DNA of 36,706 bases from Clostridia bacterium (GTDB lineage: Bacteria > Bacillota > Clostridia > Oscillospirales > CAG-272). A program made the translations under genes and the position numbers. The stretch covers positions 1 to 36,706 of the forward strand of contig JAFUOQ010000028.1 of NCBI GenBank assembly GCA_017472695.1, read 5' to 3'. Positions 2,133 through 35,862 of the stretch are shown here, in pieces (the stretch's first letter is position 1; every line of letters begins with the position of its first letter). The notes under the pieces were generated by a model. That model saw nothing but the letters and a program-made list of their open reading frames with translations, ran no database searches and was not told the origin of the DNA.

Positions 2133-3401
2133 ATGATTACAAAATCCTTTAATATTGCAAATGGAGTAAATCTTCATTATATAGAAACTGATAAATTTAA
2201 AACAAACTATTTTTCATTTAATTTTTTAGCACCAATATCAAAAGACACGGTTCATTATAATGCAATGATACCACTAATTTTGATGCGTGCATGCGAAAAA
2301 TATCCATCACAAGCAGAAATAAATAAGCGCTTACAATATCTTTATTCTGGCGATATTTGTTCAAGAAATGATTCCTTTGGTGAGTATCAAATCTTTGGTT
2401 TAAAGGTTAATATGCTAAATGATAGATACACCGTGGGTACAGATGTAACAGGCGAAATGGTGGATCTTGTCTGTGAAATGGTATTCAATCCGTATCTTGT
2501 AAACGGCGCTTTTGACGAGGAGTTCACAAGAGGAGAGAAGATAAACCTAATTGATACAATTGAGGCAGAGGTGAATAATAAAGGACAATACGCGATAAAA
2601 CGCCTGATGAGCGAAATGTGCAAGGACGAGGTATTTGGCGTATCCAAGATGGGCGAGGTGGCCGATGTTGAAAAAATCACCACTAAATCTCTTTATAATG
2701 CATATAAGGACGCTCTTGCAAATGATAAAATAGAGATTTATTTTGTTGGAAAAACCGATATTACCAAGGTCGTTGATGCTTTTAAAACTAGATTTGCTAG
2801 CGTTGAAAGAGCACCGAAGGAAATTTTGCCAGTTGAAATAAAAATGACAGCAGGCGAAGTAAAGCAAGTGGTTGATACCGAAAAGGTAAACCAAGGTAAG
2901 CTCGTTTTAGGCTTTAGAACCGGTTATCACTATTCACAAAATGAGTACCATTTAATTCAGCTTTTTAACGAAATTTTTGGTGGCTCTCCAACTGCAAAGC
3001 TTTTTACAAATGTAAGAGAGAAAATGAGCCTTTGCTACTATTGTCGTTCAATGATTAACCAAAGAACGGGTATAATGATAGTAAGCTCTGGAATTGAATC
3101 TAAAAATAAGGAAATTGCTGAAAAGGCAATTTTAGACCAGCTTGAAATAATTAAAAATGGTCAAATTTCCGATGAGGAGTTTTCAAGCGCTAAAAAGTCC
3201 ATCAAAAACGGATATCTTTCTATTTATGATGGTGCAGAGGCCATGGAGGCATGGGCTTTCTTTAGAGGAATTTGCGGTATTGATACCACACCAATTATAG
3301 AAGGCGAAAAAATAGAAGCTGTAACGATTAACGAAATAAAAGAGGTTGCTAAAAAAATCACACTTGATACAGTATATTTCTTGAAGGGAGAGGACGCATA
3401 A
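2133..3401 (+). CDS. yfmF: M16-family peptidase-like protein YfmF (non-zinc subunit)
   Basis: This 422-residue protein of the M16B (insulinase/processing peptidase) fold lacks the inverted zinc motif HxxEH: the equivalent N-terminal segment (about 40-70) reads ILMRACEKYPSQAEINKRL. It does keep the C-terminal substrate-binding signature, KLFTNVREKMSLCYYCRS at about 289-306, with the Arg and Tyr typical of M16. It therefore looks like the partner subunit of the catalytic protein encoded immediately downstream. In Bacillus the homologous pair yfmF/yfmH has been linked to modification of elongation factor P. AAAGGAG lies five bases before the ATG. The stop overlaps the downstream start (TAATG), indicating a coupled operon. 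Confidence 0.88.
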   Translation: MITKSFNIANGVNLHYIETDKFKTNYFSFNFLAPISKDTVHYNAMIPLILMRACEKYPSQAEINKRLQYLYSGDICSRNDSFGEYQIFGLKVNMLNDRYTVGTDVTGEMVDLVCEMVFNPYLVNGAFDEEFTRGEKINLIDTIEAEVNNKGQYAIKRLMSEMCKDEVFGVSKMGEVADVEKITTKSLYNAYKDALANDKIEIYFVGKTDITKVVDAFKTRFASVERAPKEILPVEIKMTAGEVKQVVDTEKVNQGKLVLGFRTGYHYSQNEYHLIQLFNEIFGGSPTAKLFTNVREKMSLCYYCRSMINQRTGIMIVSSGIESKNKEIAEKAILDQLEIIKNGQISDEEFSSAKKSIKNGYLSIYDGAEAMEAWAFFRGICGIDTTPIIEGEKIEAVTINEIKEVAKKITLDTVYFLKGEDA

Positions 3402-4699
3402 TGAGTAATATAGTAGTTAAAGAAAACAAAATGCTTGGCGAGAGGCACTACAGCTTTACTCATAAAAGTGGACTTGAGGTGTTTGTTTTTCCTAAAAAAA
3501 TGAGCACATCCTACGCAATTTTTGCAACAAGATATGGCGCTGTTGATAATAAGTTCAAGCATGCAAGCGATAAGGATTATACAATAGTTCCTGATGGAAT
3601 TGCACACTTTTTGGAGCATAAGATGTTCGAGTGTGAGGACGGCGTTGACGCATTTGAAAGATATGCAAAGACAGGTGCAAATGCAAACGCTTTTACTGGT
3701 AATAATCTTACAGGATATATATTTTCATGTACTGAAAATTTCTACGAGTCCCTTGAAATTCTGCTCGATTTTGTAACTCATCCGTATTTTACAGAGCAAA
3801 CTGTTCAAAAGGAGCAAGGAATTATTGGTCAAGAAATAAAAATGTATGAGGACCATCCAGGTGTTAGAATGCATAGAGAGCTTATGAAGGCTCTTTATAA
3901 GAAAAACAAAATGCGTATAGACATTGCAGGCACTGTTGAATCAATTGCTGAAATAACCGCCGAGGTGCTCTATAAATGCTATAATGTTTTCTACAACCTT
4001 CGCAATATGACTCTTTGTGTTTGTGGCGATGTAGATATTTCAAAGGTTGAGGCAGTTTGCGATAAGGTTTTAAAGGAGGCAGAGCCTTTTACTATCGTAA
4101 GAGATACAGAGGATGAAGACGAGCCAAAAGAGGTTTACAAAAAGAGAACAGTATGTCAGCTTGATGTTGCAAAGCCACTTTTCTCAATTGGAATTAAGGA
4201 TTCAAATATCCCAGCTGATCCAAAGGAGAGAACAAAGAAAGCATACGCAACTGAAATTCTAGACGAGATGCTTTTTTCACAATCATCTGAATTTTATAAC
4301 GACCTATACTCAAAAAATTTAATAGCACAGGACCTTTCCAGTGGTTGTGAAATAGGCAAAAGCTATTCGTTTAATGTTATTTCCTCGGAGTCAAGTGATC
4401 CTGATAAGGTTTATAAGCTATTCCTTGACTATATTGAAAAAACAAAGAGAGATGGACTAAATAAAGAGGATTTTGAGCTTTCAAAGAGAACAGTTTATGC
4501 CTCTAATATAAAATCCTTTGATTCTGTTGAGGATATAGGAAACAACTTTATTTTCAACTATTTTGATGGTGCTGATATTCTTGATACATCTGATATAATC
4601 AATTCTATTACCTTTGAATATGTTACAGAGCTTCTAAACGACACATTCAAAGAGGAGTATTATGCTATTAGTATAGTTGAGCCTAACAAAAAAGCATAG
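3401..4699 (+). CDS. yfmH: M16-family zinc metallopeptidase YfmH (catalytic subunit)
   Basis: This 432-residue M16B peptidase carries the inverted zinc motif HFLEH at 69-73 (H69, E72, H73); a further Glu about 75 residues on would complete the site. Sequence around it (GIAHFLEHKMFE, then GANANAFTG) is typical of the family. It lacks the Arg/Tyr substrate signature seen in the upstream protein, so the two genes seem to encode complementary halves of one peptidase. The start overlaps the yfmF stop by one base. It is followed after 21 bases by lgt in the same operon. It has no signal peptide, so it is probably cytoplasmic. Confidence 0.9.
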   Translation: MSNIVVKENKMLGERHYSFTHKSGLEVFVFPKKMSTSYAIFATRYGAVDNKFKHASDKDYTIVPDGIAHFLEHKMFECEDGVDAFERYAKTGANANAFTGNNLTGYIFSCTENFYESLEILLDFVTHPYFTEQTVQKEQGIIGQEIKMYEDHPGVRMHRELMKALYKKNKMRIDIAGTVESIAEITAEVLYKCYNVFYNLRNMTLCVCGDVDISKVEAVCDKVLKEAEPFTIVRDTEDEDEPKEVYKKRTVCQLDVAKPLFSIGIKDSNIPADPKERTKKAYATEILDEMLFSQSSEFYNDLYSKNLIAQDLSSGCEIGKSYSFNVISSESSDPDKVYKLFLDYIEKTKRDGLNKEDFELSKRTVYASNIKSFDSVEDIGNNFIFNYFDGADILDTSDIINSITFEYVTELLNDTFKEEYYAISIVEPNKKA

Positions 4700-10383: not shown

Positions 10384-11850
10384 TTATTTATTTGTACTTT
10401 TAGGGATCTTGATTACAACCTTTTGAGTTGGCTTTTGAGTAGGTGACTCTGCATTCTCTTTTGTAGCAGGCTTAATTACAGGCTTTGCAACTGGCTTTGG
10501 TATAGGCTTTGGAGTCGGTTGTGTAGCCATTGCACCTTTCTCTGAAACAGGCTTTGGAGTCGGATTCGGAACTGGTTTTGGAATCGGCTTTGCAACAGGC
10601 TTTGCTACAGTTTTTGGAGCAGTTTCATTTGTAACTGGTTTTTGCGCAGTTGTTAGTTTAACAGTGTTATTATATGCCTCTTCCGCTGGTTCGTCACAAT
10701 AAGAAACAGATCTTTTGTTTCTGAATATTGCCGAAACAACGATAAGAGCTACAGAGAAAAATAGAACAAAAACGCCTTGAACCAAAATATCATATGGCAT
10801 TATTGTAAATAGATCAGAATTAAAGATAGTCGCAGTTATAACTGTGGTAAGAAAGATAGAAACGGTCATAACAATTGAGTCTTTCAAAGGACTGAATTCC
10901 ATTACCTTTGGCAACGCTTCCTTCTCGTCGAGGGAAAGCATATGTCTGAATGAATTTTTAAGAGCACTACTTAATGTAGAGAAGCATACAGAGAAAGCAA
11001 CACAAATTAAAACCATTACAAGCTTTGTTATTTCATTGTCGTCAAAGTAGTAGTTGCCTGTGTTATATAAGAAATCAAATCCGATATAAACAACATTACC
11101 AAGCTTTGAGCTTCCTAAAATAGCAAGGATAAGAGCTCCTAATGAAGCAAATGTTATATTTGCAATCCACAATTTTTTGTTAACTGATTCAAGCCTTCTC
11201 TTGGATATAAACAAAGCAACGCTACTGCCTATAAGCACAAGAGTAAGAAGAACCAAACCGAAGGTTGTAGCTCCGCTAATCTTATATCCTAAATATAAGC
11301 TATCTTTTAGGCTGTAACTGGCTCCACCAAAGATGCAAATCACCATATAAGAGCCAACAATTGAACCAAAATAACGAGTTACAATATTAATTAGCTTAAG
11401 AGAATTTCTGGTTGAAAAATGAACGATAGCAACAATGAAGCAAACAAGAGTAGTTATAGCAATTTCTATTGCAGTTATGCATAATACAAGATTGCTAATA
11501 AGCTCTGGAATATATATCTCTGGATACGATTGAGCGTAGCTTAATGCATCAGAAATGCTTTCAACCTCTGAAATTGTGTGGAATATAAATGCTAAAATAC
11601 CATAGGATGAGGATCCATAAGTGTTGTAATGAGTAGCAAATGAAGATGTCACAAGTAAAATGAAAAATATAAATGTGACGAATATAACAATATCACAAGC
11701 AAGTCTTGCAGGTGTTCTTTTCTGTCTGGTATAATAGCTGTCAAAGCCTGGCGTTGCTTGGGATACATCACTTGAGGTTTCAAGAGGATATTTTCTTAAA
11801 TATTTATGGCGAAGCTCCTCAATCGGTACGTCTTTTTCAAAATCTGACAT
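10384..11850 (-). CDS. Polytopic membrane protein with a Pro-Lys repeat tail, function unknown
   Basis: This 488-residue protein was not recognised as a member of a named family. After a ~45-residue hydrophilic N-terminus there are about eight or nine membrane segments between residues 49 and 385 (for example ACDIVIFVTFIFFILLVTSS and ILVQGVFVLFFSVALIVVSA). A soluble tail of about 90 residues (397-488) has a 417-464 core built of repeated KP, IPKP, VAKP and TPKP units. The tail is basic and likely extended. ACAAGGAG lies eight bases before the ATG. It is the second gene of a unit with the TM2/zinc-ribbon gene (33-base gap), under the promoter at 12661-12689. A role in envelope or cell-surface organisation is only a guess. 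Confidence 0.75.
   Translation of the reverse strand: MSDFEKDVPIEELRHKYLRKYPLETSSDVSQATPGFDSYYTRQKRTPARLACDIVIFVTFIFFILLVTSSFATHYNTYGSSSYGILAFIFHTISEVESISDALSYAQSYPEIYIPELISNLVLCITAIEIAITTLVCFIVAIVHFSTRNSLKLINIVTRYFGSIVGSYMVICIFGGASYSLKDSLYLGYKISGATTFGLVLLTLVLIGSSVALFISKRRLESVNKKLWIANITFASLGALILAILGSSKLGNVVYIGFDFLYNTGNYYFDDNEITKLVMVLICVAFSVCFSTLSSALKNSFRHMLSLDEKEALPKVMEFSPLKDSIVMTVSIFLTTVITATIFNSDLFTIMPYDILVQGVFVLFFSVALIVVSAIFRNKRSVSYCDEPAEEAYNNTVKLTTAQKPVTNETAPKTVAKPVAKPIPKPVPNPTPKPVSEKGAMATQPTPKPIPKPVAKPVIKPATKENAESPTQKPTQKVVIKIPKSTNK
10462..10614 (-). repeat. Imperfect repeat encoding the Pro-Lys tail
   Basis: Within the 3' end of the membrane-protein gene, plus-strand units of the type GGCTTTGG-A-T/A-CN recur about every 12 or 24 bases (GGCTTTGGTATA, GGCTTTGGAGTC, GGTTTTGGAATC and others). 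They encode KP/PKP dipeptide repeats. Such arrays expand and contract easily. Confidence 0.75.
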
Positions 11851-23403: not shown

Positions 23404-25086
23404 ATGTTAGATTTTGCAAAGGATAAAGCATTTTGGGAAAATGTTCGCACAAGCGACGAGTTTAAATGGCACAGAGAAGAGATTAAAGCTCTATATGATG
23501 ATGCTTTTAAGGAAGAACCAAGATCGCACAGCGCAGAGGATATTTTAGGTAATGATGATAAAGGACTTTGGAGAAGGCAATTTGACCATTTGCAATCTTC
23601 AGCCTTAATGGCGCTTATTTATCCCGAAAACGAGGAGTACTACAACAATTTAATAAAGATTGTTTGGGCATATTTGAACGAATATACATGGGCACCACTT
23701 GGACACTATACGGAATATTATTATCAAAGAACACCAAAGGATTTTGACTATGGCCTTTTAGATATATTCGCGTGTTCTGCAGCTCTTGCTCTTACTGAAA
23801 TTAAAAATCTATTTAAAGATCGCTTTCCAAAGCTTTTAACTGATAGAATCACCTATGAAATAAGACGCAGAACTATTGAGCCATATCTAACACGTAAATT
23901 CTTTTGGGAAAGCCATGACAATAACTGGACAGCGGTTTGTACAGGAGCCGTCGGTAGCGTTTTAATGTACGAGGCCCCCGAGCTTTACTATGAAAATCAA
24001 GAAAGACTCCACAAATCAATGGAATGCTACTTGGATAGCTACAAGGACGATGGTATGTGTGTTGAAGGCGCCGGCTATTGGGCATTCGGATTTGGCTTTT
24101 TTACTACCTTTGCCTTGCTTGAAAAAGAGTTCACAAATGGAAAAATTGACTGGTTTAAACGCCCAAAGGTTAAGGAGATTTCAAAATACCTTCAAAAAAT
24201 GTTCCTAACCAAGGATGTTATAGTTAGCTTTGGTGATTGTAGCGTTGAAGAATACTATGCAATTGGTTTGCCAAGTATGCTACGATATATTTATGGTGAC
24301 GAGGTTGAAAGATTACCTAAAGAGCGAGCAATAGTTTCAAAAAACAACACGCATTTTAATTTTCTTTTACGTGCGGTTTTGTACTATAGCGAGGATAACT
24401 ATACTGATAAAATGAATACCGACGTTACATATACAATGACAGATTCAGCGTATTTAGTAAAGCGCACCAAGTCATTTGGATTTGCTTGCAAGGGCGGAAA
24501 CAATGGAGAAAGTCATAACCATATAGATGTTGGTACATTTATTCTTGCAAGAAAAGATAAGCAAATCATTGCCGATATAGGTTCAGGACCATATCTTGAG
24601 GGATATCACGGCGACAAAAGATATACATATTTCCATCCAAGTGCTTATGCACACAACCTGCCAATCATTAATGAAACACCACAATGTCAGTATAGACAGG
24701 AGGATGTTATAGTTCATTATGATAGTGACAGCTCGAAAGCATATATGGATATGGGCTGTGCATATGCTCTTGATTATATGCCAAGCGCAAAAAGGTCATT
24801 TGTTTTTAATGATTATTCTGTAATCTTAAATGACGAATTTACTTTCACAAAAGAGTCACAGGTGACCGAACGATTTGTTTCTCTAATTGAACCAAGAGTG
24901 GAGGGAAGCATTGTAATAATTGATGATGTTGCTCTATTGCAAAAGGATAATATACTACCTGAAATTACAACGAAAGAGGTAATAGCACACATTGGAAATC
25001 GTCCGCATAATGTATATATTCTAGATTACATTTTGCCAAAGGGCGAACCCAAGTTTGAGCTTAAATTCCAAGCCCAAAACAAATAA
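23404..25086 (+). CDS. Heparinase II/III-like polysaccharide lyase family protein
   Basis: This is a 560-residue protein with the two-part layout of heparinase II/III-type lyases. An alpha-helical toroid (about 50-340) has HDNNWTAVCTGAVG (171-184) and EGAGYWAFGFGFF (221-233). A beta-sandwich C-terminal domain (from about 350) has ESHNHIDVGTFILA near 367-380. The Asn/His/Tyr residues in these motifs are typical active-site positions. There is no signal peptide (it starts MLDFAKDKAFWENV), so it probably acts on imported uronic-acid oligosaccharides in the cytoplasm. No transporter, regulator or uronate genes are adjacent. GAGG lies eight bases before the ATG, and it may be read from the rqcH promoter (33-base gap). 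The exact substrate is unknown. Confidence 0.85.
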   Translation: MLDFAKDKAFWENVRTSDEFKWHREEIKALYDDAFKEEPRSHSAEDILGNDDKGLWRRQFDHLQSSALMALIYPENEEYYNNLIKIVWAYLNEYTWAPLGHYTEYYYQRTPKDFDYGLLDIFACSAALALTEIKNLFKDRFPKLLTDRITYEIRRRTIEPYLTRKFFWESHDNNWTAVCTGAVGSVLMYEAPELYYENQERLHKSMECYLDSYKDDGMCVEGAGYWAFGFGFFTTFALLEKEFTNGKIDWFKRPKVKEISKYLQKMFLTKDVIVSFGDCSVEEYYAIGLPSMLRYIYGDEVERLPKERAIVSKNNTHFNFLLRAVLYYSEDNYTDKMNTDVTYTMTDSAYLVKRTKSFGFACKGGNNGESHNHIDVGTFILARKDKQIIADIGSGPYLEGYHGDKRYTYFHPSAYAHNLPIINETPQCQYRQEDVIVHYDSDSSKAYMDMGCAYALDYMPSAKRSFVFNDYSVILNDEFTFTKESQVTERFVSLIEPRVEGSIVIIDDVALLQKDNILPEITTKEVIAHIGNRPHNVYILDYILPKGEPKFELKFQAQNK

Positions 25087-30870: not shown

Positions 30871-30955
30871 ATTTTTTGAAATTCAAATAAGGCTAAAATT
30901 TCTTTCTGAGTAAAAAAGCGCACCTATAATTTTGCGCAAAATTTTAAAATTTAAC

Positions 30956-30984
30956 TGTACAAATTTAAATATATATGTTAAAAT
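30956..30984 (+). promoter_or_regulatory. Extended -10 promoter of rlmB
   Basis: TGTTAAAAT gives a TAAAAT -10 (30979-30984) with TGN extension. TGTACA, four of six matches to the -35, lies 17 bases upstream. The start would be near 30991, about 25 bases before the chosen ATG. Confidence 0.55.
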
Positions 30985-31015
30985 ATATATAACTATGCCA
31001 AATGGGAGTTTTAAA

Positions 31016-31885
31016 ATGGCTTTTAATCAAAAAAACAATTTTAAGAAAACAAATTTCAAAAACAACAATAAAAGTGAATATAAGGGAAATCGTCATTCTA
31101 TAAGTGGTGATTACTCAAGAAGCGCAGAGGTGCCCTTTGAGGAAAAAGAGGACAATGGTGTTGTCGTTGGACGCAACGCCGTTCGTGAGCTTTTAAAAAG
31201 CGAAAGAAATATAGAAAAAATATATGTTAAAAAGGGTGGTAGCCACGAGGGCTCTATTACAGTTTTAGTTGCCGAGGCTATTGAAAGAGGCATTCCAATA
31301 GTAGAGGCAGAGGCTCAAAGGCTAGATTCAATTGCCGAGGGGACAAATCATCAAGGCATTGTTGCAATAGCTTCAATGAAGGAGTATTCAACTATTGATG
31401 ATATGCTTGAATTGGCAAACCAAAGGGGAGAAAAGCCACTTATTGTTATTGCTGATTCAATCGAGGATCCACATAATCTCGGTGCTCTTATAAGATGTGC
31501 TGAATGTGCAGGCGCTCACGGAATAGTAATTCCTAAAAGACGTGCGGTTGGTATAACTCCTACCGTTTATAAATCCTCCGCGGGCGCAATTGAGCATATG
31601 CTAATTGCCAAGGTTTCAAATATTGCAACAACAATAGAGCGATTGAAGAAAAAAGGACTTTGGATTTTCACCTCCGAGGCTGGAGGCACTCCATATTATG
31701 AAACAGACTTCAACTGTGCTTGTGCAGTCGTACTCGGCTCGGAAGGAAATGGAGTATCAAGAATAGTAAAAGAAAATAGCGATTATATAGTTTCCATTCC
31801 AATGTATGGAAAGGTAAACTCGTTAAACGTATCAACTGCAGCATCGGTCATTCTTTGCCACGTGGCAAGAATGCAACGAGGCTAG
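31016..31885 (+). CDS. rlmB: 23S rRNA (guanosine-2'-O-)-methyltransferase RlmB (TrmH/SpoU family)
   Basis: RlmB methylates the 2'-O of a guanosine (G2251 in E. coli numbering) in the peptidyl-transferase region of 23S rRNA using AdoMet. The 289-residue protein has a basic, Asn/Lys-rich N-terminal extension (1-40), then a substrate-binding domain VVVGRNAVRELLKS (about 48-61). The knotted SPOUT domain has NLGALIRCAECAGAHGIVIP (motif 1), VLGSEGNGVSR (motif 2) and IPMYGKVNSLNVSTAASVIL (motif 3). The ATG at 31016 is chosen because GGGAG lies seven bases upstream and the promoter overlaps the earlier in-frame codons. Tandem location near sigH is conserved in Firmicutes. Confidence 0.95.
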   Translation: MAFNQKNNFKKTNFKNNNKSEYKGNRHSISGDYSRSAEVPFEEKEDNGVVVGRNAVRELLKSERNIEKIYVKKGGSHEGSITVLVAEAIERGIPIVEAEAQRLDSIAEGTNHQGIVAIASMKEYSTIDDMLELANQRGEKPLIVIADSIEDPHNLGALIRCAECAGAHGIVIPKRRAVGITPTVYKSSAGAIEHMLIAKVSNIATTIERLKKKGLWIFTSEAGGTPYYETDFNCACAVVLGSEGNGVSRIVKENSDYIVSIPMYGKVNSLNVSTAASVILCHVARMQRG

Positions 31886-31897
31886 AAGGGAGTAATA

Positions 31898-34009
31898 ATG
31901 GACGAAAGATTTGAAAATGATTTAAATGACACAGAAAAAGATGCTTCTGATATAAAGACTGATAATATTATAGTTGATGATACCGAGGATCTTGTTACTC
32001 CCGATAAGGATGTCTTTTCAATGGCTGTTGATGGCAATGTTGTTAAAAAGTCCAAGCGTAAAAAGGGCTTTGCAGCAACCTGGCACGGCGAAGAGGACGA
32101 TAAGGACAAATTTGATGTTGACGAATCATATACAAGCTCTGCAACTGCAGATAAGAGCTTTATGAAGGCGTTTGGCTTGTCGGAAACTGGCAATCATAGA
32201 ACTATATCTGACCTTGATAAGACTCAAAAAACAACGGAGTTTGTAAGCAATGACGAATATACAGATGTTAGCGAAAGACAACAGATTAGAGAAAACTACA
32301 AGATTCTAAAAAGAAAAAATATAAGAAAAATAGTAATTTCTGTTATTTTTGCAATCATTCTTTTCTTACAGGAGAATGTTTTTAGATTTATTGAGATAGA
32401 GGGCTTTGACTATTTTAATATGAGCGCTCATCCGTATATACATATAATTATAAGCTTTGTTGCTTTATTTACATGTGCAATTTGTGCAAGAGACCAAATT
32501 GTTCAAGGAACACGTTCGATTTTTAAAAAAGACTATACACCAGATTCCGTGGCTCCTATTGCCTTGATTGCTGGCGTTTTGCAAACATTAATTACTCTTT
32601 TATTTGTTGCTATAAGCTATGGCACACATATTATGCTTTTCAATTTTCCGGTTGCCGCTGTGTTGATTGGCTCAATAATTTATTTCCATTTAAATATAAA
32701 AAGGGAAAGATATGGCTTTGCGGTTGTTTCCTTCGACCATCCAAAATTTGTACTTGAAAAGGTACAAGAAAATAACGCAGAAAGTGAATTTGATACATTT
32801 ACTACTACAACAACTAGCGGTGGTGATTATATTGGAGAAATTGCACGCACTGCAAAAACACCATTTGTTAAGAATTTCTTTTACAATACCAACACAACCG
32901 TTGATATTAGAAAGTATTTGAAGTTTTATTATATCTTTGCATTTGCAATTCCACTAGCTTTGGCAATAGTATCTATGTTCATTGACAAAACTGATTTAAA
33001 TGTTTATATGGCATTTACTTACTTCTTTGTAGGGCTATTTTGTGTATTGCCAGTTGGAATTTTATTTTCTTATAGCGTTCCATTCTTGATTGCTAATACT
33101 CGTCTTTATACAAGCGATAAGGTTTCTATAATTGGAGAGGAAGCAATTGTTAACTTCGCGGGTATTGATGCAGTGGTAGTAAATGATACTGCGGCGTTCC
33201 CATACAAAAATGTTAAGGTTTCTCCAATTAATTTATACAATAGCTTCACCTTCGAGCAGGTTGCATACTATGCTGCAAGTGGATTTTCCGTCGTTGGTGG
33301 ATCTTTGGCACAGGTATTCAATAATATGCTTGATGGATCAATGTCAAAAAGCTCTAAGGTCAAATTCGTTTGCGCGGGCAGAAACTATTTAAGAGTTACT
33401 GTTGATGGACACGCAATTATTTTCGCTGATAAAAATGGTATGACCATTCAAAATATCGAGGTCGGTGGAGAACATGAGGACAACAAGGGCTTGAGCATTA
33501 TGTATATGGCATGCGATGGTGAACTATGCTCCAAAATGTATATTGATTATAGAATCAACAAGGAGTTCTTGCAGACTACAAAGTATGTAAACTCCAAAAA
33601 TATGATAGTAGGAATTAGAACCTTTGATCCGAACATAAGCAATGATTTGATTAACAGGATAACAGGCTTTACTAAAAAGCAGGTTAAGGTTATTAAGCTA
33701 ACATCAATATCAGACATTCCTTCAACCACACAAAGAAGAGATGGACAAATCGTTTCAAAGGGCTCATCCTGTGCACTTTTAAGGGCTATACCTATGTGTA
33801 GAAGGATTTTAAAAACAAGAAAGGTTATCAAGGCGATAAAAATAATATCATCAGTCTTGGGACTTGCATATTTGGGTGTTTGTATTTTTAGTCCGTTCAG
33901 CTTCGGACCACTCAATGTTCTCCCATCAGGCTCGATTGTTCTATTACATATGGTATTTGCATTTATTATGTATATAGTAACATGTATGATATTGCCAAAG
34001 AAAAAATAA
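31898..34009 (+). CDS. Large membrane protein with P1B-type ATPase layout but no phosphorylation site
   Basis: This is a 703-residue protein. An acidic N-terminus (1-130) precedes eight predicted membrane helices in a 4+2+2 pattern: about 143-160, 181-197, 218-240, 246-264; then 342-362, 372-398; then 645-664, 679-699. That is the topology of P1B metal ATPases. After helix 6 the text SDKVSIIGEEAIVNFAGIDA (406-425) continues as VVVNDTAAFP (426-435). It aligns with the GxLIKGGxALE...VVFDKTGTLT region, but the catalytic Asp is Asn (N429) and KTGT is DTAA. LPVGILF (384-390) stands where CPC(A)L would be; TFDPN (575-579) may replace TGDN; no TGE actuator motif is visible. It is probably a non-pumping pseudo-ATPase. 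GGGAG precedes the ATG. Confidence 0.7.
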   Translation: MDERFENDLNDTEKDASDIKTDNIIVDDTEDLVTPDKDVFSMAVDGNVVKKSKRKKGFAATWHGEEDDKDKFDVDESYTSSATADKSFMKAFGLSETGNHRTISDLDKTQKTTEFVSNDEYTDVSERQQIRENYKILKRKNIRKIVISVIFAIILFLQENVFRFIEIEGFDYFNMSAHPYIHIIISFVALFTCAICARDQIVQGTRSIFKKDYTPDSVAPIALIAGVLQTLITLLFVAISYGTHIMLFNFPVAAVLIGSIIYFHLNIKRERYGFAVVSFDHPKFVLEKVQENNAESEFDTFTTTTTSGGDYIGEIARTAKTPFVKNFFYNTNTTVDIRKYLKFYYIFAFAIPLALAIVSMFIDKTDLNVYMAFTYFFVGLFCVLPVGILFSYSVPFLIANTRLYTSDKVSIIGEEAIVNFAGIDAVVVNDTAAFPYKNVKVSPINLYNSFTFEQVAYYAASGFSVVGGSLAQVFNNMLDGSMSKSSKVKFVCAGRNYLRVTVDGHAIIFADKNGMTIQNIEVGGEHEDNKGLSIMYMACDGELCSKMYIDYRINKEFLQTTKYVNSKNMIVGIRTFDPNISNDLINRITGFTKKQVKVIKLTSISDIPSTTQRRDGQIVSKGSSCALLRAIPMCRRILKTRKVIKAIKIISSVLGLAYLGVCIFSPFSFGPLNVLPSGSIVLLHMVFAFIMYIVTCMILPKKK

Positions 34010-35862
34010 TGCAAAAGGATATTAGCACAATTCTTAAGTCCGTTTCCAAGCCTGCAAGATATACAGGTGGTGAATTTGGACAGATTATAAAGGATAAGGA
34101 AAAGATAAAGACAAGAGTTGCCTTTTGTTTTCCGGACACATATGAGATAGGTATGTCAAACCTCGGTATGAAAATCCTTTATGGCGCAATAAACGAGCTT
34201 CCGTATGCTTGGTGCGAGAGGGCATTTGCCCCTTGGCCAGATATGGAAGAAAAAATGCGTAAAAATCAAATTCCTCTTTTCACTCTGGAAAGCAAGGATG
34301 AAATAAAGGATTTTGATATAATGGCGATTTCAATGCAGTATGAGCTTTGCTATACTACTGCAATTAATATGATTGATTTAGCGGGTATACCTGTATTTTC
34401 AAGGGACAGGGGAGAAGACTGCCCAATAATTCTAGGTGGTGGGCCTTGCGCTTATAACGCAGAGCCTATTGCTGACTTCTTTGATATTTTTAGTATAGGA
34501 GAGGGAGAGGAGGCTCTTTGTGAGCTAGTCGAGCTCTATACTAAAATGAAGGATAATGGTACATACACAAAAGCTGAATTTTTAAGAGAGGCATCTCATC
34601 TTGAGGGCTTCTACGTTCCATCACTATACGAGGTGGAATACAATGAAGATGGCACTATAAAGTCATTTGAGCCTAAATTTGACGATGTTCCTAAAAAGGT
34701 TGTTAAGAGGGTAGTGGCTGATTTAAACACCTCATATTTTCCCTTAAGGCCTGTTATGCCATATATTGAAACTGTGCATGATAGAATAATGCTCGAAACC
34801 TTCCGTGGTTGTATAAGAGGCTGTCGCTTCTGTCAAGCTGGTATGGTTTATCGCCCCGTGCGTGAAAAGAGCGCAGAGGTTCTAAATTCACAGGCAAAGG
34901 CAATTTATAAAAACACAGGCTATAATGAAATATCATTGACCTCACTTTCAATTAGCGACTACTCATGCTTACATGATGCTACTGACATGCTTCTTTCGTG
35001 GACAAATGATAAAAAGATTAACCTATCATTGCCATCATTGCGTGCAGACAGCTTCACCCGAGAGCTTATGCGTAAAATTTCAGGCGTTCGCTCGAGTGGT
35101 CTCACATTTGCTCCAGAGGCGGGCACACAACGACTCCGCGATGCTATAAATAAGAATTTATACGAAAAGGACCTTTTAAATGCTGTTCGTCTTGCTTTTG
35201 AGGGGGGTAAGAGCCAAGTGAAGCTCTATTTTATGAACGGCTTGCCAACAGAAACCTATGAGGATATTGAGGGCATTGGTACTCTCGCAAAAACAGTAGT
35301 AGATGAATATTATAATACGCCAAATCGTTCAAGAAAGCCTGTTTCGGTTACAGTTTCTGTTTCGTGCTTTGTGCCGAAGCCTCATACACCATTTCAATGG
35401 GAGCCACAGGATTCCTTGGAATCTCTACGCTCAAAGCAAATGTTTTTAGCGGAAAAAATCACTGACAAAAAGATACGATATAACTGGCATGAGGCAAAGG
35501 TTTCTCGCCTTGAGGCAGTATTTTCCAAGGGTGATAGACGCCTTTCACGTGCTATTTATTTGGCACAGCAAAAGGGTATGAGATTTGACGCATGGGATGA
35601 ATATTTCGATTATCACAAGTGGATGGAAGTATTTGAGGAGTGCGGAATCGACCCTGATTTCTATGCTAATCGTAAAATGTCATATGATGAGATTTTACCT
35701 TGGGATGTTATTGATATTGGAGTTTCTAAAAGCTTCTTAATAAGCGAAAGCAAAAAAGCTTACCAAAGCCAAACCACACCTAACTGTAAGGAAAAGTGCT
35801 CTGGCTGTGGAGCAAATAAGCTTGGAAGGGAGCATACATGGTGTCCGAAGAAAAACAAATAA
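34009..35862 (+). CDS. TIGR03960-type B12-binding-fold radical SAM protein
   Basis: This is a 617-residue radical SAM protein of the TIGR03960 group. The N-terminal region (about 1-200) resembles a cobalamin-binding-type domain, with KPARYTGGEFG, FPDTYEIGMSNLGMKILY and ILGGGPCAYNAEPIADFFD. The [4Fe-4S]-binding motif is FRGCIRGCRFCQAG near residues 264-277 (C-x3-C-x2-C). The C-terminus ends in a Cys-rich CSGCGANKLGREHTWCPKK. The reaction is not established; linkage to DUF2344 and usually to ribosomal or RNase G genes suggests RNA or ribosome modification. The ATG at 34009 overlaps the upstream stop (TAATG). An in-frame ATG nine codons earlier is possible, but family N-termini resemble MQKDISTILKSVSKPARY. 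Confidence 0.92.
   Translation: MQKDISTILKSVSKPARYTGGEFGQIIKDKEKIKTRVAFCFPDTYEIGMSNLGMKILYGAINELPYAWCERAFAPWPDMEEKMRKNQIPLFTLESKDEIKDFDIMAISMQYELCYTTAINMIDLAGIPVFSRDRGEDCPIILGGGPCAYNAEPIADFFDIFSIGEGEEALCELVELYTKMKDNGTYTKAEFLREASHLEGFYVPSLYEVEYNEDGTIKSFEPKFDDVPKKVVKRVVADLNTSYFPLRPVMPYIETVHDRIMLETFRGCIRGCRFCQAGMVYRPVREKSAEVLNSQAKAIYKNTGYNEISLTSLSISDYSCLHDATDMLLSWTNDKKINLSLPSLRADSFTRELMRKISGVRSSGLTFAPEAGTQRLRDAINKNLYEKDLLNAVRLAFEGGKSQVKLYFMNGLPTETYEDIEGIGTLAKTVVDEYYNTPNRSRKPVSVTVSVSCFVPKPHTPFQWEPQDSLESLRSKQMFLAEKITDKKIRYNWHEAKVSRLEAVFSKGDRRLSRAIYLAQQKGMRFDAWDEYFDYHKWMEVFEECGIDPDFYANRKMSYDEILPWDVIDIGVSKSFLISESKKAYQSQTTPNCKEKCSGCGANKLGREHTWCPKKNK

Follow-up and report, generated by a model that had tools for sequence, protein, structure and literature searches.

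The phosphorylated aspartate is the defining feature of P-type ATPases. Among these enzymes, the families P1 to P6 have been described and undescribed prokaryotic diversity is said to remain, and the P6 ATPase CtpE has been characterized as a Ca uptake pump; an inactive bacterial family is not mentioned in the portion of the article considered here (PMC10654040). Outside bacteria, guanylate cyclase beta of Plasmodium carries a degenerate P4-ATPase domain, in which the authors were unable to identify most of the signature residues, according to the excerpt used here (PMC6592433). No report of a bacterial pseudo-P-type ATPase was found in a literature search of open-licence PMC papers.

The DNA analysed here, referred to as the window, is a whole stretch of 36,706 nucleotides from a Clostridia bacterium (contig JAFUOQ010000028.1). 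One of its genes had been described in a first-pass annotation as encoding a P1B-derived pseudo-ATPase of an undescribed family, a description that is supported by the profile and motif evidence presented below. Judged from its sequence, the window protein is, together with its relatives, almost certainly a pseudo-ATPase of P1B descent. The features of the locus are the following:

30932..31885, + strand: rlmB, gene of the 23S rRNA Gm2251 methyltransferase, the constant upstream partner; the ORF start may be over-extended
31898..34009, + strand: putative pseudo-P1B-ATPase gene, 703 amino acids plus stop; family homology by profiles
31898..32287, + strand: acidic N-terminal tail, residues 1-130, poorly conserved and without HMA domain (33 D/E, 18 K/R)
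32312..32695, + strand: predicted transmembrane helices 1-4, residues 139-266, from hydropathy and colinear with CopA in hhalign
32696..32920, + strand: putative remnant of the actuator-domain loop, residues 267-341, without TGE in the window protein, from loop length
32921..33100, + strand: predicted helices M3-M4, residues 342-401, from the CopA alignment
33101..33823, + strand: putative remnant of the P/N-domain, residues 402-642, with conserved D430, Y551, D577 and N579 and with the GDGxND segment deleted
33134..33208, + strand: degenerate phosphorylation block GEEAIVNFAGIDAVVVNDTAAFPYK, residues 413-437, with N429 on the phospho-Asp in the alignment
33824..33994, + strand: predicted final two transmembrane helices, residues 643-699, from hydropathy
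34009..35862, + strand: TIGR03960 radical SAM gene with overlapping start (TAATG), a neighbour within the window's family

The pseudo-ATPase ORF (31898-34009) is preceded by AAGGGAG 5 nt ahead of its ATG start, and its stop overlaps the ATG of the radical SAM gene in the sequence TAATG, the coupling noted in the first pass. Eight helix-like segments in a 4+2+2 layout are predicted for the window protein from hydropathy only, and this claim of the annotation is borne out by the relatives, in which each of the eight helices is hydrophobic in 125 to 137 of 137 sequences; a further weak hydropathy stretch (409-428) is the strand of the phosphorylation block. Residues 413-433 read GEEAIVNFAGIDAVVVNDTAA, with N429 at the position of the phosphorylated Asp and DTAA at D430-A433 exactly as claimed, so that NDTAA (residues 429-433) stands at the site of the P-type DKTGT. 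None of the motifs CPC, TGE, DKTGT and GDGxND is present in the window protein, in which P385 is aligned on the Pro of CPC and both Cys are substituted. The statement that neither CPC nor TGDN is visible needs one correction, in that the Asp of the latter motif is kept (TFDPN, D577). The acidic character of the 130-residue N-terminus was confirmed by the counts listed above. Searches of Pfam, NCBIfam and PDB with the single sequence gave no meaningful match to the window protein, and a Pkr1 match at 0.042 was taken as chance. Elsewhere in the window, no Pfam match at 1e-5 was obtained for the ORFs at 10384-11850 (- strand, 488 aa) and 23404-25086 (+ strand, 560 aa); the sole match at 1e-5 of the ORF at 2133-3401 (+ strand), which is directly followed by a 432-aa ORF (3401-4699), was the inactive-domain model of M16 peptidases.

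Relatives of the window protein were identified in 45 of the 57 related genomes searched, the weakest near E 1e-4. A family profile of 32 rows (A1) matched the Legionella CopA (LpCopA, 3rfu) with E 3.2e-31, and a core profile of 117 rows (A3) matched it with E 4e-40 and the Cd and Zn ATPases with E 1.7e-14 and 1.1e-12, respectively. On account of this difference in profile scores we use the label CopA-like, and descent from CopA in particular appears quite probable. The alignment of A3 with a profile of five intact CopAs (A4) by hhalign yielded 99.9% and E 1.7e-34; its 512 columns run colinearly from the first helices as far as M5. A control with an unrelated window protein yielded 0.1%. Scanned singly, 18 of the 32 A1 members matched TIGR01525 at E<=0.01 (best 1.1e-11), with scores far below the curated cut-off of this model (346 bits), nine matched the CopA model PRK10671 (best 2.9e-16), and one matched Pfam E1-E2_ATPase, at 0.005. 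From G413 through the phosphorylation block, 21 of 22 pseudo-ATPase rows align with CopA free of gaps, so that the phospho-Asp is matched by N429 and the Lys by D430.

For the residue counts, 174 family ORFs were reduced to 138 by removal of exact duplicates and to 137 by removal of L079, a misfiled CopA; the interrupted copies L035 and L045 and the contig-edge fragments L116 and L117 had been excluded before counting. The gene is split into two ORFs in the interrupted copies (L035:4164-6560 and L045:5221-7448), by either a sequencing error or a real interruption. Nineteen ORFs representing 18 distinct genes served as comparators, all of which possess DKTGT, CPC and GDGxND. The question raised by the first-pass annotation, whether N429 is fixed among orthologues, is answered in the negative, as position 429 is occupied by D in 32, N in 29, T in 17, S in 15, A in 13, R in 10 and E in 8 of the 137 members, and by other residues in the remainder. 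At position 430, D was found in 111 members, A in 14, S in 7, E in 4 and V in one, but K in none. What is fixed is the loss of the whole motif rather than the N429 substitution: Lys never follows position 429, even with D429 present in 32 of 137 members, in which lineages some chemistry is conceivable. DKTGT is absent from the phosphorylation site of all 137 members, which retain none (53 members), one (79) or two (5) of its letters at 429-433; an intact DKTGT elsewhere in the chain, named in the annotation as a finding that would speak against it, was sought in all 137 chains, and only two DKTGS strings were detected, both in N-terminal tails.

Further catalytic and metal-binding elements are missing. 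Neither GDGxND nor CPC occurs in any of the 137 whole chains, CPx variants are absent from the M4 regions of the family members, and no member has His at the HP site. In the 22 pseudo-ATPase rows aligned with CopA the GDGxND segment is a gap throughout, and the conserved P-domain Lys is substituted. The actuator-domain loop, correctly described in the first pass as short and lacking TGE in the window protein, has a median length of 71 residues (138 rows, one being the misfiled CopA) compared with 136-137 in 16 CopAs, and the letters TGE occur within the loop in six of 137 members. An HMA-type CxxC was found in 0/137 members versus 17/19 comparator ORFs, and in no helix does Cys, His, Met or an acidic residue reach half of the 137 members. 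With these parts missing, the protein can neither be phosphorylated and dephosphorylated nor bind metal in the manner known from P1B ATPases, and the absence of the metal ligands tested for makes the metal-linked role at which the annotation had hinted less likely.

Other positions are conserved. D577, the counterpart of the D in TGD, is present in 135 of 137 members (T at the first position of this motif in 97, G at the second in none), Y551 in 131, where CopA rows carry an invariant Asp, G413 in 126 and P395 in 118, and the second G of the N-domain motif GxG is retained in 104. D430 is shared by 111 members and D or E at 432 by 100; since D429 is found in 17 of the 22 members with a non-acidic residue at 430, an acid at 429 or 430 is present in 132 of 137. 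The tail preceding the first helix has a median length of 275 residues (range 105-617 in 134 members, with mechanically called ORF starts) and is net negative in 122 of these 134. A motif in this tail, [DES][DEN]IL.E, was considered as a docking motif shared by a network of proteins and looks like a family feature instead: it occurs in the first 110 residues of 32/137 family members versus 6/1196 other ORFs of at least 200 aa, the latter possibly including duplicates of family members. A stricter DNA pattern of this motif yielded 29 sites in 12 genomes; nine of them fall within residues 1-25 of a long ORF, which in each case is the pseudo-ATPase gene. A tenth copy of this gene has the motif at residue 45, and in other long ORFs it lies at residue 28 or later.

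With respect to the genomic neighbourhood, rlmB was located upstream on the same strand in 126 of 138 rows, at a spacing between -60 and 200 bases. In eight of the remaining 12 rows the spacing is -62 to -226 or +206 bases, for which misjudged ORF starts are the probable reason; the last four comprise three without upstream sequence and the misfiled CopA. Accordingly, rlmB is the next upstream gene in all 134 testable rows. The genes beyond the pair vary: 44 clusters were counted in 56 loci beyond rlmB (at most 4 loci per cluster; on the same strand in 31 loci), and the 108 loci with a gene downstream of the pseudo-ATPase gene gave 50 clusters (same strand in 86), numbers that are inflated by spurious neighbours as the clusters derive from mechanical ORFs. 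The commonest downstream cluster is the TIGR03960 radical SAM gene (40/108 loci), followed by an EF-G-like gene (17/108 loci; one member, L036, identified by Pfam); in L035, which lies outside the 108-locus set, the downstream gene is EF-G-like too. We discarded the idea that the radical SAM gene is a partner of the family at large, as it is adjacent in 42 rows only, 39 from the window's own family and three being named records of unspecified family code. Of the context emphasized in the first pass, the link to rlmB is thus general and the one to the radical SAM gene is not. The pair of rlmB and the pseudo-ATPase gene is held together while its surroundings change. The close spacing suggests co-transcription, and the linkage may reflect a shared promoter only.

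The pseudo-ATPase gene is under purifying selection, with dN/dS values of 0.037-0.125 in 12 close pairs; the estimate is rough in five of these pairs, in which silent sites are saturated (dS above 1), and the other seven span the same dN/dS range. The median identity between families in 21 loci was 0.18 for the pseudo-ATPase core versus 0.49 for RlmB, and the low value for the core also fits a loose constraint. A match below 1e-50 was obtained in 241 of 247 genomes of the window's order (counted by eye from the table), in a survey that gives coverage only for the stronger matches and in which approximately 20 matches are flagged with one internal stop. In five of the six genomes without a match, RlmB was not matched at 1e-30 either, and in the sixth, rlmB lies 0.4 kb from a contig end; assembly gaps therefore explain these absences at least as well as gene loss. 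In the phylum search, two of 149 genomes matched at 1e-45, both from the window's order, and the gene was not seen in the 147 other genomes at this threshold. The class search covered 293 genomes, 278 of them outside the order, and among the matches listed, those outside the order have their best stretch from profile column 404 on, like ordinary P-type ATPases. The gene is near-universal in one bacterial order.

A possible origin of the family is indicated by another small order of the same class, in which an intact CopA gene lies directly 3' of rlmB in five of 14 genomes matched by rlmB (L205, L206, L225, L226 and L227). These CopAs carry CPC, TGES, DKTGT, HPL and GDGIND, and an HMA domain was detected by Pfam on L205 and L226. 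The other nine genomes have no CopA after rlmB (eight loci read, one judged by coordinates), and in other families a P-type gene downstream of rlmB was found in 0/18 loci, two of which are too short to tell. In a quick tree the pseudo-ATPase family forms one clade (SH-aLRT 100) on a stem of about four changes per column, and in the best tree it falls on the zinc/cadmium-type side of the branch with a support of 75. Trees constrained to join the family with the rlmB-linked CopAs or with other CopAs were hardly any worse, with p-AU values of 0.486 and 0.494, respectively. An rlmB-operon CopA as the ancestor is a possible and attractive scenario, which the tree neither confirms nor rejects.

We hypothesize that the pseudo-ATPase is a non-transporting membrane receptor or scaffold, a role that its sequence makes reasonably likely; the sensor or partner function proposed in the first pass is plausible as well. 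On this view, a P1B-type ATPase, probably CopA-like, would have turned into a non-transporting membrane protein, the retained scaffold of which, eight helices with a P/N-domain head, may act as the receptor or scaffold. The former catalytic pocket, in which D430, D/E432 and Y551 are newly conserved and D577 is ancestral, could bind a ligand without chemistry, as suggested by this new conservation in the head and by the selection on the gene, and the long acidic tail may reach a cytosolic partner. The protein would be expressed together with rlmB, and its function may be connected with growth or the supply of ribosomes. A more far-reaching scenario starts from a copper ATPase in an rlmB operon that changed, a single time and in the order's common ancestor, into a non-catalytic membrane receptor; together with RlmB, this receptor would link a signal from the envelope or the cytosol to the production of ribosomes, and as such it would have become a core gene. 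This scenario is speculative and as a whole rather unlikely.

Several other explanations have to be considered. HAD phosphatases are characterized by a DxD sequence as motif I, a Lys and an acidic motif IV. It is conceivable that chemistry of the HAD type persists with the nucleophile shifted by one residue, D430-x-D/E432 then resembling this DxD, and D430 (111/137), the acid at 432 (100/137) and D577 in the motif II loop (135/137) are compatible with such a site. However, the GDGxND segment is missing in 22/22 CopA-aligned rows and the motif in all 137 chains, the P-domain Lys is substituted, and of the members with no acid at 430, 17 carry D429 and five do not. As the family commonly has the D430-x-D/E432 arrangement yet has lost the Lys and the GDGxND segment, we regard persisting HAD chemistry as improbable. 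Least probable by far is a decaying pseudogene or neutral leftover: the lost catalytic motifs, the fast divergence between families and the two loci with interrupted copies would be expected of such a gene, but not dN/dS values of 0.04-0.13, a near-universal retention and new, nearly invariant residues.

Two alternatives assign a specific partner to the protein. Pseudoenzymes often bind their active relatives, and with this general precedent the protein might serve the intact CopA encoded in its own genome as a chaperone or regulatory subunit; the window's genome does encode such a CopA (L076, with CPC, TGES, DKTGT and GDGIND). Against this, the metal ligands are lost and the pseudo-ATPase loci (stretches of up to 16 kb) contain no second P-type match at 1e-5, so that the chances of this explanation appear slim. 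An unlikely role, yet a slightly better candidate, is that of a membrane anchor for RlmB or the ribosome, in which the acidic tail would bind RlmB or nascent large subunits and thereby couple rRNA modification to the membrane. It is consistent with rlmB as the only constant neighbour and with TIGR03960 radical SAM (40/108) and EF-G-like genes (17/108) as the top downstream clusters, but linkage of the genes is its sole basis, conservation of the tail is poor, and Pfam and NCBIfam searches revealed no RNA-binding domain in the window protein.

The receptor or scaffold role, which we favour, provides a starting hypothesis on the function of a core gene unrecognised by Pfam and NCBIfam in the window. 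If a lineage devoid of the motifs is truly kept under selection in almost all sampled genomes of an order, the scaffold of a P-type pump would be useful without pumping, and the family offers a way to ask what such a scaffold can do alone.

In comparison with known systems, the pseudo-ATPase shares with CopA (TIGR01511/TIGR01525; 3rfu) a colinear 4+2+2 core and the P/N domain, with a phosphorylation block aligned free of gaps in 21 of 22 rows and the Asp of TGD common to both. Unlike CopA, it lacks DKTGT, GDGxND, CPC, the His of HP and the HMA domain, its A-domain is reduced, and it carries a long acidic tail. The rlmB-linked CopAs (L205, L206 and L225-L227) occupy the same place 3' of rlmB and belong to the same superfamily, but have intact motifs and, by Pfam in L205 and L226, an HMA domain; a sister relation to the pseudo-ATPase family is possible. 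The P6 family with CtpE resembles the present case as a bacterial P-type family that was recognised late, and differs from the pseudo-ATPase, which is devoid of the catalytic motifs. The degenerate domain of the Plasmodium guanylate cyclase beta is eukaryotic, of the P4 type and fused to a cyclase, whereas the protein described here is bacterial and, in all likelihood, of P1B descent.
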